25,480 nt of DNA. It comes from a virus. Both the position numbers and the translations under genes were made by a program. The notes under the pieces are model-generated. The model was not told the origin of the DNA and did not search any database. It saw only the letters and a list, made by a program, of their open reading frames with translations. Location of the stretch: positions 1 through 25,480 of the IMG/VR virus record IMGVR_UViG_3300029309_000316; one strand, written 5' to 3'. Positions 1 through 10,888 of this stretch are shown here, piece by piece (position 1 is the stretch's first letter; each line of letters begins with the position of its first letter).

Positions 1-875
1 GATGTTTCTTTTGGTATTGTATAACCAGTCGAGTTCTGTATTTGCTTGTATATTTTTTGCTCTTCTTCGGCAGCTTTTAAACCGTCTTTTTCTAACTGCT
101 CTCTATCTTCTAAACTAAAGTTTTTTCTATTTGATAAATACCCTTGTATTTCATCTGCTGTACCTGTAAAAGCAACCTCACCGTCTTTTTTTATATTGTA
201 CGTTAAAGTCCCTTGTTTTCTTGCACCACTAGCATTGATTTCTAAACCTATGTTTTTATAAGCTACATTAGCTCTTCTTAAATCATCGTTTTCAAATCTT
301 TGTTTACCTGTACCTCTAGCACGTGTGTCAGCACCAACTAAAACGTTATAACCAACACCTTCTTTAATAACATTTTCTTTTGCTCTATCTAAATCTGCTT
401 TTAGTATGTTTAACTGAGCAATAGAAGAATCACTACCATCAAGAGTTATGTTTTCAGTACTTCCATCAGGTCTTTTAATGACAACGCTATTACCTCTTGT
501 TGGTTCAATACCAAAGTCTACATCATCATATTCTTGTCTAAACCTAGCTACAATGTCATCATTATTTTTTGAAGCCCAAGTTACAGAGTTACGCCAATCA
601 AAATCACTGTTTTTATTCATTGCAGCAACCTCTTTTGCTTCTGCTTCTTTTCTATCTTTTTCGTCTTGTGCCGCTTGCTTTTTATCTTCTTCAATTTTTT
701 GATTAGCCAGCTTTTGCCTTTCTATTTCCTGAGCTTTTTGCTGAGCATACACAGATTGTCTGTTTTTTATAAAAGTATCAATTAAAGCTTGAGCTCGCTG
801 CACAGGAACCCTATCAGCTTTCATTTGAGCTACCGCATCTTTAAGTTTTTGTTTATCTTGAGGATTTAAATACAT
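1..875 (-). CDS. N-terminal part of a large internal virion-like protein (cut by window edge)
   Basis: The reading frame starts at ATG 875 and stays open to base 1, giving 291 visible residues. I do not recognise its full function. Residues 1 to about 90 are strongly helical and charged, with many K, Q, E and A, and are probably coiled coil. A mixed alpha/beta stretch follows, with a short strand-turn pattern (VVIKRPDGS) near residue 125. The start lies 1 bp downstream of the stop of the EF-hand gene, so the two are probably cotranslated. It has no signal peptide or membrane segment in the visible part. Its place after the two internal-protein genes suggests a third ejected virion protein. 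In related phages this position often holds a very large protein (lysozyme or virion RNA polymerase fusions), but nothing visible here proves either. Confidence 0.75.
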   Translation of the reverse strand, partial: MYLNPQDKQKLKDAVAQMKADRVPVQRAQALIDTFIKNRQSVYAQQKAQEIERQKLANQKIEEDKKQAAQDEKDRKEAEAKEVAAMNKNSDFDWRNSVTWASKNNDDIVARFRQEYDDVDFGIEPTRGNSVVIKRPDGSTENITLDGSDSSIAQLNILKADLDRAKENVIKEGVGYNVLVGADTRARGTGKQRFENDDLRRANVAYKNIGLEINASGARKQGTLTYNIKKDGEVAFTGTADEIQGYLSNRKNFSLEDREQLEKDGLKAAEEEQKIYKQIQNSTGYTIPKET

Positions 876-876
876 A

Positions 877-2022
877 TTAAATTAAACCGTAAGTGTTTAG
901 TTGACCAGATTCTTTTTTATAAGCTTGAGCTATGTCTGCTCTTGCGCCGCCATAGTTTTTTTCTAGTATAGATGTATAGTAATTACCAACAGCTTTTTTA
1001 GTGATACTTTCTTCATAATAATCATTTTTAGGATTAACTAACGCATCAAATATTTTGTCACTATCTTCTTGTGATATAAGTTTAGCTTCTTCCATAGATA
1101 TTTTACCATTACCATCTGTATCGTAAACCTGACCGCTAGACGACACAGTATCTATGCCTAGCGCTTGATATGACAAACCACCAATGTAATCTTTAATATT
1201 TTCAGCCATAGTAGCTTCACCAGTAAATACGTTGTCATTTAATATAGACTGTATGTTTGCTGTTTCTAAAACTTGCATTACTTTTCTGTTTGTTTCGTCT
1301 TTATTAAATTCTTTATATTTATCATTGTCTGTACTTAAACCTTCGTTTATAGCAGCTTCATTCATTAAAACCTCGTTTATACCTAATAAATCATTATGAG
1401 TTTTAACATCTCTTTTTGAGTCATCTAATATTTTTTCAAGATCACCTTTGCTATATAGCTTGCCATCAGGACCTTTTATTTTAGATACACCGTCTTCAAA
1501 CACAACTTCAGTATTAGAGTCTAGTATAGAGTTTAATAGGTTTTGTGTATCTGAATCTAAACCTTTTATTAAGTTTGGCAAAGCTTTACCATCAACACTT
1601 TTTGTATCTATAGTTTGAGCTACTTCTTTTCTAAAATCTACCCATGTTGCAGTGTCTGAGCTAAGGTTATTTAATTGGCCTAATAACTTTTGCTCTTCTT
1701 CTTTGTTTCCGTCTTGAACAGCTTTGTCGTATTTGGCTTGTAAATCTTCTACTTGAGGTCTATAAGCGTTTAAATAATTTTCGTTTAAAGCGCCGCTTCT
1801 ATCTAATACTTTTGTAGCAAGATCTTGTCCTGTTTTTTTACCATCAGATATTCTTTTAGCTTCTGTTTTAGCATCAGTCTCTCTTTTATTAGCTAAATCA
1901 GTACCTAACTTATTAAGGTCTTTACCAATTTTACCAATAACATCTACTCCTCTTTGACCAAAGCTTTTTTGTGCTTCAGACATTTTAGCAGCTTTATATG
2001 CGTTTACTAAATTTACATTCAT
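877..2022 (-). CDS. Putative internal virion protein with one EF-hand loop
   Basis: This is a 381-residue soluble protein without signal peptide or membrane segment. Residues 15-70 and 85-120 are charged, helical and coiled-coil-like. Residues 301-312 (DTDGNGKISMEE) match the canonical EF-hand calcium loop: Asp, Asp and Asn at positions 1, 3 and 5, Gly at 6, Ile at 8 and Glu at 12. Helix-forming sequence follows, but the segment before it is rich in Ser and Gly, so a full two-helix EF-hand is less certain. The gene lies between the T7 gp14-like protein (7 bp gap) and the next large protein (1 bp gap). That setting suggests a minor capsid-internal or ejected protein. The ATG at 2022 has an A-rich leader and no Shine-Dalgarno. 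The virion role is inferred from context; the calcium loop is read directly. Confidence 0.75.
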   Translation of the reverse strand: MNVNLVNAYKAAKMSEAQKSFGQRGVDVIGKIGKDLNKLGTDLANKRETDAKTEAKRISDGKKTGQDLATKVLDRSGALNENYLNAYRPQVEDLQAKYDKAVQDGNKEEEQKLLGQLNNLSSDTATWVDFRKEVAQTIDTKSVDGKALPNLIKGLDSDTQNLLNSILDSNTEVVFEDGVSKIKGPDGKLYSKGDLEKILDDSKRDVKTHNDLLGINEVLMNEAAINEGLSTDNDKYKEFNKDETNRKVMQVLETANIQSILNDNVFTGEATMAENIKDYIGGLSYQALGIDTVSSSGQVYDTDGNGKISMEEAKLISQEDSDKIFDALVNPKNDYYEESITKKAVGNYYTSILEKNYGGARADIAQAYKKESGQLNTYGLI

Positions 2023-3183: not shown

Positions 3184-3525
3184 TTATTTACTACTTTCAA
3201 ACATATCTACAGCAACTCCAAACAGTTCAGATTTTATTGTACTTGTGTTTTTCATTTTTACTTCTGCAAAATAACCTAAAATACTACTTAAATTAGCCTT
3301 ATTATCTTTCATAAAAAATATAAAAGACCCACTAGGTGGTACTGCTAAATGGTTTTGTATAGTTATGGCGTTACCACTTATACCTGTTATTGTACCAATA
3401 CTAACTATATTAGACTGTGTAGCTATTGAAAAACTACCAGAAGAACTAGTTGGCACGTAGTATGCAAAATCACCTACTTGGCAAGATACGTTTAATGGTT
3501 GGCTAAATGTTAATGTTACTGGCAT
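3184..3525 (-). CDS. Small conserved virion-associated protein beside the tail-hub gene
   Basis: This 113-residue protein has a beta-rich first half (residues 1-75, with many S, T, V and I) and a conserved-looking tail including FFMKDNKANLSS (69-80) and ELFGVAVDMFESSK at the C-terminus. I recall this C-terminal pattern in small proteins next to the giant hub or stabilisation protein in uncultured marine phages, where no function is assigned. Its start is 1 bp after the stop of the 2453-residue gene, so it is probably translationally coupled to it and may act as a small partner in the same tail structure. No enzyme motif, membrane segment or signal peptide is seen. Confidence 0.7.
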   Translation of the reverse strand: MPVTLTFSQPLNVSCQVGDFAYYVPTSSSGSFSIATQSNIVSIGTITGISGNAITIQNHLAVPPSGSFIFFMKDNKANLSSILGYFAEVKMKNTSTIKSELFGVAVDMFESSK

Positions 3526-3526
3526 G

Positions 3527-6500
3527 TTATGTTATTGTTATAAAATTAGGTTGTAGTATTACGTTACCGTCAGGTATTGAAGCTGTAGACTTTCTACCAT
3601 AGCTATTTACTTTTATTACACCTGTTACAGTTACAACTGTAGCCGCTTCATTTATAGTTGCTACAGCGCTTTTTAAAGTATAATCGTAGTCACTAGTAAA
3701 TTCTATTGTTTCTTCTTGAGGAATAGCAGCTGTTGTATTCGCACTTAAAGTAACGCTATCGTTAGTTGTAACAGTAATTACTGTTGTACCTACAGGTATT
3801 GCTTCGTGAGAAGCTACCATACCAACCTTTATACCCGCTGTATCTGCTATATGTATAGTGTTAACATTAGAGTTTTCATCAGATATAGGTTTAGCTTTTG
3901 TTAAAGAACCTTTGAAATCTCTTACTGTAGGTTGTCTATCAAGTGTCATTGTACCTGATGATTTTGTATAAGTAAATGTAAAAGCTCTTTCACCAGAAGT
4001 TTCACCTAACTGTGTTAACTCAGTAGCACTATGTATAGTTGTACTACCACTTGCATTTAAGTTTGTTTTAGTTGTAGGTGTAAAAGTTTGATTACCTGTT
4101 TCTTCTAAAACTGTAAAGTTTAACTCGTTTATAGCATTAGGCACGCTACTGTCTAAAGCTAAACTACCAGCAGAGCATATAATACTATATGTACCAGCGC
4201 CATTGCTAGGTATTGCAACAGTAAAATCTTTTTGAAATACGCCAACAACACTAGTTTGATCTGAAGTAGCAAAGGTTGAGGTTAATACGTTACCACTTCC
4301 TTCTAGCGCTTCAAAAGTTTGGTTTGAAAAATTATAAGTTGAATCAACTGCATTACCAGCTGCGTTTAATTTAGCTACTTGTAAACCAAAGTTACCAGTT
4401 GCGTTTGATCTTACTAATATACCCTTACTACTAGACAAAATAGCATTAGGACTAGTTAAAACGTTTGTTATTCTATTGCTTACAGTAGGCAATGCTTTTA
4501 CTTCGTAAGTAAATCTAATGTCATGTAACAATGCGTCAAAGTCAGAAGGATCTGGGTCTAGACCTGATATACCAACTGGAGGTGTATAAGATATTTCTAT
4601 TGTAGAGCTTTTTATTCTGTTTGTTTGTCCAGTTGCAGTATGCATTGTGTTTATAACATTAAAAGCATATTGATTTTCATAACCTAAGTTTGCTGTTAAA
4701 GGGTTCCAAAATACATTAACACCTTTGTCACTACCTTGTAAAGGGCTTAAATGACTATCGTTTGTTGAAGTAACTGTATACGTAGCAACTATTGTAGATT
4801 GATTACCTGCTACAACACCAGAGTGTTTGTTAGTGTTAGACATTGAAGAATAGCCGTTAGCAGAAACGTGTGAAATACTACTACCACCAACAGAAACTGA
4901 AGAGTTGTTTTGAGGTGTAAAGCTAACTCTAAAAACAGAAGTTCTGTTAGGTGTATTAGCTACTATAGGTGGTGTTGAAGCAGAACTCTTTAAATCAACA
5001 TCTACAAATATAGTTTTATCAGAACTAGGCATTGTAAAAGAGTTGTAAGATATTCTTACAGAAACTCTGTTACCAGGATCACCAGCTATACCTTGATTAA
5101 AAAATTCAACTTGACTAACTTCAGGATCTGCGTTCCAACCCGAGGCCTTAGTGTAAATATAAATTGTTGAATTACCAGAGCCGCTAGTTGTAAGCGTACC
5201 ACCTGGAACTTCAAAGTCTGCAGCGTCTAAATCAAAACCAGAGTATTGAGCAACTTGTTGTGAGTTTAAAACCATGTTACTTATAGTATCAGTTACAATG
5301 CCGTTACCTGTTGGTTGTTGCTCTGTCATTGTAGGTGTTGAGCTAGGACCAAGGAACCTAAATGTAGAAGGATCAGCGCCGCTAGAGTCCCAGTTAGTAC
5401 CATCAGAAGCTGTGCTATTAACTTTTACTGTTATTTTAAATATTCTACCTGTACTACCACTTGAGCTTATAGAAGCAACACCTAAGCCTTGAACAGAAAA
5501 CTCTCTTTGGTCTAAGTTAGCGTCTGTAGATGTAACTCCTTTTAAACTAGCAAACCACTTGCCTTCTTTTTCTTTAAACTCTATGTTTTCAGCGTCTTGT
5601 AAATCTGTTTTTAAATTGTCTAAGTACCAACCAGCTTTGGCGTTTAAGTTGTAATACTCACCATCTGTATAATTAACACCGCCTTGAGTTACGGTTGAAA
5701 ACTCAGTTATTCTAGCCTGCGTGCCTTCGTAGTTTATTAAGTTAAAACTTTTTACAGAGCTAGGCATCTCGTTAAATATCATTGTAATATCAGAAAAATA
5801 TTGAACGCCGTAAAAATTGTTAACAGTGTTGTTAGTATGATGTTTCCACATTGAACCTTGTCTAAATGTGTAATACTCATTATTTAAACTAACACCAAAC
5901 TCTAAACCATTAAAGTCCTTAAAGCTTGTCCAACCTTGAGCTCTATCAGACCAACTAATAGTTGTTGTAGTAGGTCTATATTGATACCTGCCGTTCATTT
6001 GGGCCAGCGTTAAATTATACTCTGATTTTTTATCATCGTAACTACCTATAGCAAAGTTTATATCTTTTAAATTATCGTTAAAATAATCTTTCATACCAGC
6101 TTCAGATATTACACTTATGCTAGATCCACCTTGTAGTTTAAGAACCTGGCTTCTCATTTGATCACACCAGTATATAGCGTCAGATGTAACAGACACAGAC
6201 TCTGGGTTTGTAGATATACCGTAGTCACCAGGTATTGGTGTTGCGTTACCTAAAACTTTATTGCTAGCAGAAACGTTAGCACCACCATCAGCATTAAATA
6301 AAGCATCTTTATTTGTTAATATACTTAATATTTTATCTTCACAAAAAGCTAAAGTGTTAGTATTTCTAGCTACAATTTTTTGTATGCTACCATGACTTGG
6401 GTTTAAGTCTTTTGTTATTGGCTCTGCTTGTATAAACTGGTTTAAATTATTAGTACCACTAATAGAGTTAAATATACCAGACCATATAAAACCACTAGCT

Positions 6501-9500
6501 CTATGCTCTTCGGCATATTCCTGAGCGGCTACAGAAGATGCTTTTACACCGTTTGCTATTTGCGTTAAAGCAAAACCATCTCTAACTCTATCTGACTCTA
6601 TACCGTTACCAAAAGCAAAACAATTACTCCAACCTAATTTTAAAGGATTAAAATGTGGAGCTCTCCATGGTACAGGGCCTCCTTGAGGATCTGTAGGCGA
6701 CTTACCTGTTAATATTCCTACAGCTGTAGCACCAGCAGCGTAGTTGCCAGACTCTTTTACAATGTACAAAGATATACATGAACCGTCGTACCTATCAATT
6801 GCTACTATTTGATTGTGGTTAATAGCGTCAGTTAAGCCCATTGTATTGTCAATAGTATTTCTAACAGTTAAGTTGGTAATATCTTTGTTGCCATCTTGAT
6901 TTACAGCTGTTACTTCATATATTACATCTGTAATACCATCAGCTGCTAAATGAAAATTGCCAGATGGATTTCTAACTTTAAATGTAGAGCCAAGAGGTAT
7001 TAACAACTCATTGTTGTCAGCATCAACATCAAGAGGTAAACAACCTGTAGCTTCGTAATAAATATCTAGTCCTATATCTTCTTTTGGTTCAGTTTCCCAT
7101 ATAGCAGGGTTTTCTGTAGATAATTCAGAGCCACCGCTTTCTGAAACGTAGTCTTCTCTTAAAATATCTATAGCAGTTGTGCTACCACCATCATGTCTCA
7201 TTAAGCTTAATACGTCAAACTCTTTTGGGTCCATTGGTCCACCACCATCAAGTTTTTCAAACATAACATTAAAGAAACTACTTTTACAACCAGTTTTATG
7301 AGGTTTACAGTTTTTACAACCACTAGTTCTTGCAAAATTATAAACTTCAGCTGCACCACCTCTGTCTATAACTTTATAAGCTGTTTGTGTTGGGTCATCT
7401 CTAAACCTAAATATAGTTCCAGATGTTTTCATTAACTCGTAAAACTTGTGTATTCTTGACTGTGCAGCGCTGTGATCTGCAAACCAACCCATAAAGCCAA
7501 AGTATATTCTACTATAACTAGAGTAATGTCTTATACCACCACAGTCATCACCTCCTTGAGTACCATAACCACTTCCCGGTGTTGCTGGATCTCCACTGTG
7601 TGTGAAGTGAACACCATTTCTATTGTTATGGTGAGGATGTCCTGATGACTTCCAATTATATCCATTTACTTTTATACCTTCTATATAAAGTCTATCACCG
7701 CTAAAAGACTCCCACCAATCTTTTGTTCTGCTGTTAGAGTTGTTATTACCACAATGGCCAAACTCATGTCCTCCACCAGCCGTGAAGCTAGCAAAACCAC
7801 CACCACTGAAAAAGTTTGCGTTAAACTTTGTGCTTTGACCGCTTTGACCTGAGTATGTTACGTTACCTGATCTATTAAAAGGGTGAGTATGGCCAGCTGT
7901 ACTTGTAGCTGTTCTTGTAGGGTGTTTTTGAAAGTTTTGATTATTTCTATTTCTTGGACCAACTAAAAGCCTTATGTCAAAAGAGTCTTGTATACTTAAA
8001 GCTATTGAAGGATCTTGATCTACCATTACAGCGTCTTTTAATAATAGGTCTTTGTAAATTTTTACAAAAAACCTACCGTTAAATTCTGGTCTGTTAGTAA
8101 CAACATCTTCTCTTAACTCTAAAGAATAATTAATAGTACCAGACAATATAGAAGACATGTCTGCTTCATCACCAAACTTAGTAGCAATTCTTATACTAGT
8201 GTCGTTACCACTATTACTAGCAAGTCCTTTTATACTAACAACTTGAACCCAGTCAGTTGTTGCTGTATTACCACCTGAAGATCCTACTATTCTAGCATAA
8301 CCAAAACCACTAGATATTTTTGACCAAGTATCTGCTAAAAACTTATCTCTATCGCCAAAACCAGCTTCAAAATTAGCTTTAGAAAATATAAAATTAACAG
8401 CATTTTTATTTACCGACGCAACTTGCGAGTCCATAACAATTGAACCATGACTAACTTTTTTAGTTTTTATATAATCAGGCGCGTCGTTTTCAATAGCTAT
8501 AATTTTATATCTAGCTCTTTCTAACACAGGAATATCTGAGTCGTGTTGTTTTTTAAGTATTAAGTAAGTATCTATATCTACTTTATTTCTTTCAGCTGAT
8601 GGAAAGCTAATCCAAACGTTACCATCTTCAGCATCGTACCAACGGTCCATCGCTAAATTGTAATACTCGTTAGAAGTTTCTTTTATATAATACTTTAAAT
8701 ACTTAGCCCAACTAGGAACAGTAGTACCAGTATAGTCTAATCTAGTTCTTATTTGGTTTAAATTAACAGACCATTTTTTATCTAACGTTATACTACTACT
8801 TTTCTTAGGAACAAGCACTGGTGTTTCTCTACCGCACTTATCACCAAAAACTACACCTAATTGATATGTTCTAAGTGTTTTAATAGAAGGTAAACCGTTT
8901 GCGCTAGGCTGTTTATAGTTTTCTCCAAAACCGTGATAAAAAGAAACTCCTAAGTCAATATCGCCAGACAAGCTGTAATTTTGTTTGTAGTTACCAAAAA
9001 CAAGTCTGTTACCTGTTATAGCTAAAGCTTTAGCGCTTTTAGGTACGTTATCATAAGGTCTTAATAATTGATTAGACTCAACAAGAGCGTGTATCATTTC
9101 AGACGTTATGGTATAAGCACCTCTGTTTCTATTATTAGTTCTATCTGGCCACTCTGGATTGTCGTTTTTTGATGTTAAAGTTTTTACAGTGTAAATAGCT
9201 GGTGATGACTCTTCTTTGTATAATAAGTCTATAGCTACAACTTCTGCAGGCACTAAACTAAACTCATGAAAATAATCTTTTAGAGTTATAAATTTAACTC
9301 TATTTGTCATACCTATGTTAAAACCTTTTTTACATACGTAGTCAAAGTCACCTGGTATAAAAGCTACTTGTGTCCAAGGTGCATAAGCAGAATACTCACC
9401 ATCTACGTATTTGTATCTATATGAAAATCTAGGAAACTTAAATTCAAATAAATTAGCATCACTTTCTAATCTCAATGCAAAATCAGTATCTACGTTTTGA

Positions 9501-10888
9501 ACATCTTCACTTACAGAGTTTATTGTTAATTCATAAGGACCTGTTGAACCACCGTTGTTTGGCATACCACCAGGAGCATCTGACACTGTAGCTCTTACTA
9601 AAGCGTCACTACCATCTAAATCATCTATATCAGAAGTTATGTCATCTGTTAATATAACTATATCACCTACTCTTAAATCAATAGGACTTACAAAATTAAT
9701 ATTACTAACAATATGACCAGGCTCAAAAACATCACCGCTACTGTCTCTAAACTTTGTTTGAGCAGATAAAAAACCACTAGTAGCATTAGCATCTCCTAAA
9801 TTACCACTAGACAAGACAGGTATTCTTTTTAATACTGTCTCTGACATTTCAAGTCTAAGAGGAAACTTTGGTGAAGGTTTTATTACTGTAATGTCACTAA
9901 GTTCAGAAAACACAGGTTCGTTATCTGTTCTTGACATTGCTAACTCATTTTTTAAAGATATTCTAGTATGAAAATTTGAGTTATCTCCAGAAAATACTAA
10001 TCTACGGTTTGGATTACCTGAAGCTAAGTTTGTTGCAGCAGATCTTGCTTGAGTGTTATCCCAGTCTCTAACCCTTGCATTACCACCTGTACCTTGTATA
10101 GATCTTTGAATATTTATTTTTTTAGGCTCATTATTACCATCAGTCCAAAGCAATAAACCATCAATATCATCTATAGCTGTAATTTTTATAAAAGGATCAA
10201 ATTCTAAAACTCTTTTTGCAGAAAAAGTTACGTTATCACCAACTGAGCTAGCAACACCTTCTGATAATACTATATGCCAACCATTTGAACCATCTCTAAT
10301 AACATCTTCAACTGTTACGTTATCATTTTCACTTATAAAATAATCATTACCATTAGTTACAGTATTTCCATTAGGCGCTGTTATATTACCACCAGTATTG
10401 TTAGTAAAAGTACCTGTCATAACCATACCTCTTCTTATACCAGTGTAGTTGTAAACATTGCTTGATCCTGATGGTACTCTAACTTTGTTGCTATTAAGAG
10501 CTTGATTAAGCGTTTGTTTTACTTTATATATATCTACAAAAACATATGTTGATGTTTGGTTTATTGTATCGTATTGTACAATACAGTCTTTGTATATTAA
10601 TGGTTGAAAGCTTTGAAGTTTAGGATGTCCACCGCTATGTACAAAATAATATATAAAATCTTTTTCAGGTAATTCATGTACGCCAACACAAGTAGAATAA
10701 TCATTAAGAACTACATTAGTTGTTACTTCTGTATTTCCTAAAACAGTTTGTACTGAACCAGCGTCAGACTCATCAGAAGTTGCTATTTGTACATTGTTAG
10801 CGTCACGATACTGACCAGGCTCCACGAGTCTTTCATCGCGGTCTTTATTCATTTTCGCTTGCCCAAAATTTCTTTTTAGTTCTGCCAT
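3527..10888 (-). CDS. Giant tail hub / stabilisation-like structural protein (2453 aa)
   Basis: The N-terminus (residues 5-55) carries the pattern NFGQAKMNKDRDERLVEPG...YRDANNV, followed by SDAGSVQ and LGN. I recognise it from the 'stabilisation' or structural proteins of crAss-like and uncultured marine phages, where it belongs to the tail or muzzle assembly. Residues 220-900 are beta-rich repeats with short signatures such as DDIDGLLLW and GNRLVFGN. Residues 998-1201 form an unusual Cys/His/Gly/Trp-rich segment (13 His and 5 Cys, including CKNCKPHKTGC at 1191-1201). The region around 1480-1700 reads like a propeller or adhesin core. The last 700 residues are Ser/Thr/Asn-rich beta domains, including one near 2345-2400 like the 'VGTTV...VTLSANTTA' modules of phage tail proteins. 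Start ATG 10888 follows the connector gene by 3 bp. The structural role is confident; the exact position in the virion is inferred. Confidence 0.85.
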   Translation of the reverse strand: MAELKRNFGQAKMNKDRDERLVEPGQYRDANNVQIATSDESDAGSVQTVLGNTEVTTNVVLNDYSTCVGVHELPEKDFIYYFVHSGGHPKLQSFQPLIYKDCIVQYDTINQTSTYVFVDIYKVKQTLNQALNSNKVRVPSGSSNVYNYTGIRRGMVMTGTFTNNTGGNITAPNGNTVTNGNDYFISENDNVTVEDVIRDGSNGWHIVLSEGVASSVGDNVTFSAKRVLEFDPFIKITAIDDIDGLLLWTDGNNEPKKINIQRSIQGTGGNARVRDWDNTQARSAATNLASGNPNRRLVFSGDNSNFHTRISLKNELAMSRTDNEPVFSELSDITVIKPSPKFPLRLEMSETVLKRIPVLSSGNLGDANATSGFLSAQTKFRDSSGDVFEPGHIVSNINFVSPIDLRVGDIVILTDDITSDIDDLDGSDALVRATVSDAPGGMPNNGGSTGPYELTINSVSEDVQNVDTDFALRLESDANLFEFKFPRFSYRYKYVDGEYSAYAPWTQVAFIPGDFDYVCKKGFNIGMTNRVKFITLKDYFHEFSLVPAEVVAIDLLYKEESSPAIYTVKTLTSKNDNPEWPDRTNNRNRGAYTITSEMIHALVESNQLLRPYDNVPKSAKALAITGNRLVFGNYKQNYSLSGDIDLGVSFYHGFGENYKQPSANGLPSIKTLRTYQLGVVFGDKCGRETPVLVPKKSSSITLDKKWSVNLNQIRTRLDYTGTTVPSWAKYLKYYIKETSNEYYNLAMDRWYDAEDGNVWISFPSAERNKVDIDTYLILKKQHDSDIPVLERARYKIIAIENDAPDYIKTKKVSHGSIVMDSQVASVNKNAVNFIFSKANFEAGFGDRDKFLADTWSKISSGFGYARIVGSSGGNTATTDWVQVVSIKGLASNSGNDTSIRIATKFGDEADMSSILSGTINYSLELREDVVTNRPEFNGRFFVKIYKDLLLKDAVMVDQDPSIALSIQDSFDIRLLVGPRNRNNQNFQKHPTRTATSTAGHTHPFNRSGNVTYSGQSGQSTKFNANFFSGGGFASFTAGGGHEFGHCGNNNSNSRTKDWWESFSGDRLYIEGIKVNGYNWKSSGHPHHNNRNGVHFTHSGDPATPGSGYGTQGGDDCGGIRHYSSYSRIYFGFMGWFADHSAAQSRIHKFYELMKTSGTIFRFRDDPTQTAYKVIDRGGAAEVYNFARTSGCKNCKPHKTGCKSSFFNVMFEKLDGGGPMDPKEFDVLSLMRHDGGSTTAIDILREDYVSESGGSELSTENPAIWETEPKEDIGLDIYYEATGCLPLDVDADNNELLIPLGSTFKVRNPSGNFHLAADGITDVIYEVTAVNQDGNKDITNLTVRNTIDNTMGLTDAINHNQIVAIDRYDGSCISLYIVKESGNYAAGATAVGILTGKSPTDPQGGPVPWRAPHFNPLKLGWSNCFAFGNGIESDRVRDGFALTQIANGVKASSVAAQEYAEEHRASGFIWSGIFNSISGTNNLNQFIQAEPITKDLNPSHGSIQKIVARNTNTLAFCEDKILSILTNKDALFNADGGANVSASNKVLGNATPIPGDYGISTNPESVSVTSDAIYWCDQMRSQVLKLQGGSSISVISEAGMKDYFNDNLKDINFAIGSYDDKKSEYNLTLAQMNGRYQYRPTTTTISWSDRAQGWTSFKDFNGLEFGVSLNNEYYTFRQGSMWKHHTNNTVNNFYGVQYFSDITMIFNEMPSSVKSFNLINYEGTQARITEFSTVTQGGVNYTDGEYYNLNAKAGWYLDNLKTDLQDAENIEFKEKEGKWFASLKGVTSTDANLDQREFSVQGLGVASISSSGSTGRIFKITVKVNSTASDGTNWDSSGADPSTFRFLGPSSTPTMTEQQPTGNGIVTDTISNMVLNSQQVAQYSGFDLDAADFEVPGGTLTTSGSGNSTIYIYTKASGWNADPEVSQVEFFNQGIAGDPGNRVSVRISYNSFTMPSSDKTIFVDVDLKSSASTPPIVANTPNRTSVFRVSFTPQNNSSVSVGGSSISHVSANGYSSMSNTNKHSGVVAGNQSTIVATYTVTSTNDSHLSPLQGSDKGVNVFWNPLTANLGYENQYAFNVINTMHTATGQTNRIKSSTIEISYTPPVGISGLDPDPSDFDALLHDIRFTYEVKALPTVSNRITNVLTSPNAILSSSKGILVRSNATGNFGLQVAKLNAAGNAVDSTYNFSNQTFEALEGSGNVLTSTFATSDQTSVVGVFQKDFTVAIPSNGAGTYSIICSAGSLALDSSVPNAINELNFTVLEETGNQTFTPTTKTNLNASGSTTIHSATELTQLGETSGERAFTFTYTKSSGTMTLDRQPTVRDFKGSLTKAKPISDENSNVNTIHIADTAGIKVGMVASHEAIPVGTTVITVTTNDSVTLSANTTAAIPQEETIEFTSDYDYTLKSAVATINEAATVVTVTGVIKVNSYGRKSTASIPDGNVILQPNFITIT

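Follow-up and report, generated by a model that had tools for sequence, protein, structure and literature searches.

Muzzle Gene and Its Neighborhood

The window, i.e., the whole stretch of viral DNA analyzed here (25,480 nucleotides of IMG/VR record IMGVR_UViG_3300029309_000316), carries at 3527..10888 (-) an open reading frame (ORF) of 2453 aa, whose product an earlier sequence-only reading had described as a giant hub protein. The family PF25729 (crAss_MUZ_C) matches residues 1688–1782 of its product (33 bits against a cut-off of 27, E = 8.4e-8). Ten ORFs of the window, this one among them, are collinear with gp088–gp097 of Cellulophaga phage phi38:1, and the muzzle ORF has its place in the structural gene block, behind the genes for TerL, the portal and virion structural proteins; altogether 11 of the 18 window ORFs compared match phi38:1 (the match to gp088 was obtained by phmmer only, E = 1.7e-5). 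Moreover, a profile built from 76 rows matches residues 1277–1723 to residues 841–1280 of crAss001 gp44 (hhalign, E = 2.4e-8), the N-terminal match of the profile to gp44 being weak (E = 0.014). Because of the PF25729 hit, the phi38:1 gene order and the gp44 match, the 2453-aa product is, on sequence homology, the muzzle (tail-tip) protein of a crAss-like phage rather than an unnamed hub. PHROG 14478 (virion structural) has its best match at residues 1414–1813 of the 2453-aa protein, and a BFVD search returned as top match an entry named crassvirus muzzle (E = 2e-33). The PDB sequence search with the full protein gave a best E of 0.02, with no recognizable muzzle among the matches.

According to the published account of crAss-like phages, the muzzle is a hexamer. 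Besides a ring-joining domain and a propeller it has a pair of Ig-like domains, and its tip is formed by a "crass" domain; muzzles vary in length because the crass region and the IG2 region take up insertions, and the muzzle is thought to gate genome release (PMC10172136). The crass domain is expected to touch the host (PMC10172136, PMC10136315). Within the open-licence literature searched, these two articles alone were found to treat the muzzle; by word search, histidine, zinc and iron are absent from the searched text of both, and "metal" occurs once in that of PMC10172136, in a reference title.

The alignment of related loci divides the muzzle into a core common to distant relatives (approximately residues 1–975 and 1250–1813) and an extension (residues 1814–2453). 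A second ORF, of 113 aa at 3184..3525 (-), follows directly on the muzzle gene and is the eleventh of the ORFs with a match in phi38:1; it shares homology with a portion of gp097 itself (31.5% identity over 73 aa, E = 4e-7), and in phrog_18548 it covers positions 162–236 while the muzzle ORF covers positions 3–94. It is probably the C-terminal part of the muzzle carried as a gene of its own, downstream of the 640-aa extension of the main protein.

Phage records matching the 2453-aa protein numbered 87, each with less than 60% identity, and were assigned to Flavobacterium (68), Cellulophaga (15), Tenacibaculum (2), Maribacter (1) and Caudoviricetes (1). Phage phi38:1 was isolated from seawater. 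A search of genome contigs gave a single partial match, locus L173 on a Flavobacteriaceae MAG contig; a fragment there has 43% identity to query residues 290–352, at the conserved end of the query, and gives a hint of the host group.

Several related muzzles, denoted here by the L numbers of their loci, show Cys-rich regions in other parts of the protein. In L025, L031, L054, L072, L126 and L147 the C-terminal extension carries, after the propeller, a Cys-rich unit, GCTDPxAxNYDPxAxxDDGSC, repeated in tandem (in L025, for example, at aa 1920–2120), which we take to be a repeat of Bacteroidetes surface proteins. The extensions of L056, L059 and L069 carry a second Cys-rich repeat, approximately YDCxxGxCVDPGxGxGxYxxLxxCxxxC, and the L059 muzzle has 88 Cys. 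A Cys-rich insert in L122 (aa 80–280) lies near the N-terminus, in a different slot. In L051, the muzzle reading frame is interrupted by a stop codon at 9788–9792, which leaves one ORF of 597 aa and another of 1283 aa.

Composition of the Cys/His-Rich Stretch

Translation of the ORF places 7286–7897 exactly at residues 998–1201, for which 13 His and 5 Cys had been reported; both counts and all motif positions proved exact (HTH at 1000–1002, HPHH at 1084–1087, HFTH at 1094–1097 and CxxCxxHxxxC at 1191–1201). These are 13 of the 41 His and 5 of the 15 Cys of the muzzle protein, and the combined His and Cys rate is about five times that of the rest. Of the residues said to be abundant here, His (6.4% versus 1.2% elsewhere in the protein, P = 1.4e-5), Cys (2.5% versus 0.4%, P = 0.006) and Gly (P = 2e-4) are enriched, while Trp, with 4 of the 28 in the protein, is not (P = 0.20); the hypergeometric P-values for His, Cys and Gly are uncorrected for the choice of window. 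The 204-residue windows richest in His plus Cys (18) begin at residues 998–1000, and the best such window without overlap with the stretch has 8. The natural unit is longer than the one reported, approximately residues 985–1214, and one of the histidines discussed below, H989, falls outside 998–1201.

Position and Variability of the Slot

Within this unit, residues 985–1147 at 7448..7936 (-) form a His-rich variable slot, and alignments together with the predicted model place in residues 1148–1214, at 7247..7447 (-), an FRFRDDP strand, a CxxC...C loop and a return strand. Among 15 non-redundant rows (the window and 14 relatives, after seven near-copies had been dropped from 22), mean pairwise identity was 34% in residues 985–1147 and 70% in the core, and the slot had the lower value in 105 of 105 pairs. 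On these alignments, the slot is shown to be a fast-evolving part of the muzzle protein. In the 74 related loci, the closer rows (to approximately L024) align without a break over whatever length they have; most of the distant rows align over approximately 1–975 and 1250–1813, with an alignment gap between. Between fixed landmarks, the complete rows among the matches listed have from 205 to 687 aa, and in other muzzles the slot differs in size and sequence or is nearly missing. Rescans for more slots of this type (A3, A4) produced no additional contigs. Two further scans added L182, L186 and L195, which together with L092 form a sister group.

We modeled residues 655–1425, at 6614..8926 (-), which would correspond to the IG2 and crass domains of crAss001 gp44, as a single chain (pLDDT 83.3, pTM 0.58). 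VIA comparison of this model with 7qok_A gave Z 6.2 and rmsd 5.3 for 220 aligned residues, the alignment ends running from model 2..771 to chain 347..945; unrelated small-barrel proteins scored up to Z 7.6, as high or higher, so this match agrees with the fold without proving it; the BFVD result is the clearer one. Foldseek of the 771-aa model against the PDB gave nothing at E 0.001 or better. A second model of 353 aa was weaker (pLDDT 66), and its best VIA matches, phage neck proteins at Z 4.2, lie within the noise. From the gp44 correspondence we infer that the stretch belongs to the muzzle's crass domain, where residues 985–1147 would be a distal excursion and residues 1148–1214 a hairpin of the crass barrel.

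Pfam searches at E up to 10 gave no family for window residues 950–1260 or for the corresponding regions of L009, L011, L016 and L092; the slot profile had a sole match among PDB sequences (E = 2.2), and residues 950–1260 had no match at E 1 in the phages collection. The earlier statement that no known domain name fits is incorrect for the protein, which is named through PF25729, and would be so for the place, that of the crass domain, though the slot is by itself without a Pfam family.

Conserved Histidines of the Slot

Five His were found to be conserved among the 14 relatives, all encoded on the minus strand: H989 (7922..7924, kept in 14/14 relatives and in 4/4 rows of the sister group), H1087 (7628..7630, 13/14 and 2/4), H1094 (7607..7609, 11/14 and 4/4), H1097 (7598..7600, 14/14 and 4/4) and H1121 (7526..7528, 13/14 and 0/4). 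At position 1094, L004 and L006 have Asp and L012 has Ser; at 1087 L004 has Tyr, and at 1121 L010 has Asn. Nine of the 13 His in 998–1201 are poorly conserved, the HTH pair and the His of the CxxCxxHxxxC group among them (H1000 is kept in 4 of the 14 relatives, H1002 in 7, H1041 in 2, H1045 in 4, H1084 in 5, H1086 in 2, H1139 in 3, H1147 in 2 and H1197 in none). Conservation in close relatives, as the sequence-only reading expected of the His, is therefore seen for five of them (11–14 of 14) and not for the other nine (0–7 of 14). The 18 most conserved slot columns include the five His (P = 0.007, with the cut at 11/14 chosen after looking); over the whole of 985–1205, His are only marginally better conserved than other residues (P = 0.04).

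The sister group (L092, L182, L186, L195) carries part of this His set. In 13 more distant rows, His stands at 1094 in three, at 1097 in two and at 989, 1087 and 1121 in none. In a tree of the core built without the slot, its 14 slot-bearing rows and L092 form one set with support 100. Both models place residues 1095–1098, with H1097 and adjoining H1094, in a short helix and residues 1119–1121 in a strand; around the His, the models are of moderate confidence (pLDDT, in blocks of ten residues, 65–86 in the 655–1425 model and 51–91 in the 353-aa model).

Two enzymatic readings of the stretch were considered. The HEFGH at 1041–1045 resembles the HExxH of metalloproteases; this candidate was rejected because H1041 (2/14) and H1045 (4/14) are little conserved and the stretch is coil before a helix in the 655–1425 model. 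More generally, the slot might be an inserted enzyme, a metal-dependent hydrolase acting on the host surface, as conserved His lie within an insert of a tail-tip protein and two Asp are kept as well (D1057 in 11/14 and D1165 in 14/14 relatives). D1165, however, looks structural because the FRFRDDP strand in which it lies is common to muzzles without the His set. No catalytic motif was recognized by our judgement, and the Pfam search up to E 10 and the one PDB match at E 2.2 likewise count against an enzyme, which we regard as unlikely, with only a slight chance of being right.

The HTH at 1000–1002 recalls the HxH iron sites of T4 gp37 and the alterophage R22Y tail fibre, and sites of this kind have been proposed for marine phage fibres (PMC11705849), where they would engage iron-uptake receptors (the Ferrojan horse idea). 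Neither His of the window's pair is conserved (H1000 4/14, H1002 7/14), and a relative of 87% identity, L022, reads ETH there, so the motif was rejected as a conserved HxH. T4 gp37, in addition, is a trimeric fibre, whereas the solved muzzle is a hexamer. An HxH iron site is accordingly also unlikely, with a very small chance of being right.

The five conserved His could thus be regarded, from their alignment, as a candidate metal or pH-sensing site. Metal binding, proposed earlier for the whole segment, is possible for these five only, of which four lie in 998–1201. Conservation of His can have causes other than metal, and the residues may instead be structural or pH-sensing, forming hydrogen bonds or stacking with Gly-rich and aromatic loops on a receptor-contact surface without any metal. 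The slot is Gly-rich and fast-evolving, its domain is expected to meet the host (PMC10172136, PMC10136315), and single His are replaced by Asn or Asp in L010, L004 and L006, all of which agrees with such a role. However, five separate His are kept at a mean slot identity of 34%, and in both models two of them, spaced by three residues, sit at a short helix; the Asp at H1094 in L004 and L006, being a possible ligand, is counted for the metal site. We consider a non-metal role a real possibility, nearly as likely as metal-holding His, though one to which we would not give an even chance.

Co-variation of the Cysteines

Four of the five Cys of the stretch recur in other muzzles, namely C1046 (7751..7753), C1191 (7316..7318), C1194 (7307..7309) and C1201 (7286..7288), all on the minus strand; the fifth, C1116, is kept in none of the 14 relatives. 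Distant muzzles that do not have the His set (L094, L095, L098, L107 and L201) carry all four, as do L047, L053, L057, L219, L224 and L225, where the segment has few His. The four are missing from L008, L009, L013, L014, L016, L017 and L020 of the window's own group. Because the four Cys recur in far muzzles without the His set, His and Cys are, as far as their distribution tells, two separate systems.

We scored the Cys states of 41 chosen rows by eye after inspection, of which 36 were assigned and five ambiguous ones (L191, L178, L179, L125 and L223) set aside; the counts are no random sample, since rows were picked for an alignable hairpin. C1046 and C1191 agree in 36 of the 36 assigned rows and C1194 and C1201 in 35 (the exception is L049); for C1046, disagreements number 5 with C1194 and 6 with C1201. 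All four Cys or none are present in 30 of the rows (none in nine), and one or two in six. Rows with 1194 and 1201 only (L010/L018, L154) and with 1046 and 1191 only (L097, L040) occupy four places on the tree, which is unrooted, so that gain and loss of Cys are indistinguishable. A sign test on 5–6 independent pairs gave the two proposed Cys pairs only P = 0.03–0.06, compared with a median of 0.25 for the cross pairs seen.

A single structural zinc site, with the knuckle C1191xxC1194, C1201 and C1046 as ligands and independent of the His, would account for the recurrence of all four Cys with CxxC spacing in distant muzzles and for the nine assigned rows that are without all four. It does not predict the four places on the tree where one of these pairs is present and the other missing, the pairs being the same two each time, and the solved crAss001 virion uses disulfides to stabilize its tail barrel and fibre hubs (PMC10172136). 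The co-variation fits two putative disulfides, C1046–C1191 and C1194–C1201, better than one four-Cys zinc site, without settling the question, and we judge the zinc site doubtful, at roughly one chance in a handful or somewhat better. The alignments lend no support to the CxxCxxHxxxC group as a metal site, given that H1197 is kept in 0/14 relatives and that its Cys and C1046 vary as two pairs in a disulfide-like manner.

In several distant muzzles, e.g., L049, L060 and L121, the conserved NPAIWETEP motif is changed to xAACWETEP or SAACFETEP, which gives an extra strand Cys.

Proposed Model of the Slot

The reading we prefer, and hold with about even confidence, is that of a fast-evolving slot in the crass domain with two disulfides and a His metal site, in a muzzle that closes the tail tip. 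The slot would face the host, and six copies of the muzzle would surround the tail exit, as in crAss001. The disulfides C1046–C1191 and C1194–C1201 would staple the hairpin onto the base of the slot. A local site made of H989, H1094 and H1097, with H1087 and H1121 added in the window's clade, would most likely bind a divalent metal (zinc or iron) and hold the long Gly-rich loops together. We propose that, with the loops fixed by such a site, they would be free to vary while the site itself is kept.

A bolder version, which we offer as speculation with a small chance of being correct, is that the five His form a metal-locked belt at the muzzle tip, each subunit having one site and the virion six, and that ejection starts when the belt is opened by contact with the host or by exchange of metal at the cell surface. 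If this were true, host-choosing loops would be free to vary around a fixed metal switch. The analysis separates two features that by eye resemble one metal cluster, and a slot that is quick to vary save for a handful of His, and whose Cys pairs evolve separately, offers specific residues at which a metal dependence of tail opening may be sought.

Comparison With Known Systems

T4 gp37 and the R22Y fibre share with the window protein a His-rich segment in a phage tail protein. They differ from it in that the conserved His of the window are not HxH pairs and in being trimeric fibres versus a hexameric muzzle. The likeness to trimeric phage spikes drawn in the sequence-only reading is likewise not borne out, the solved homologue being a hexameric muzzle (PMC10172136).

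The muzzle of phi38:1 (Pervagoviridae), gp097, is alignable over residues 1–1825 of the window protein (profile E = 2e-100) and lies in an equal gene order. Unlike the window protein, it has no counterpart of most of residues 985–1230 and has three Cys in all, and part of gp097 corresponds to a separate ORF in the window.

With crAss001 gp44 (PDB 7QOK/7QOL), the likeness lies in the match of its residues 841–1280 to the window muzzle. Gp44 is without Cys between residues 462 and 949 and so has no counterpart of the Cys of the slot. It is also far shorter, with 1371 aa versus 2453 aa, and the His-rich slot and the C-terminal extension belong to the window protein.
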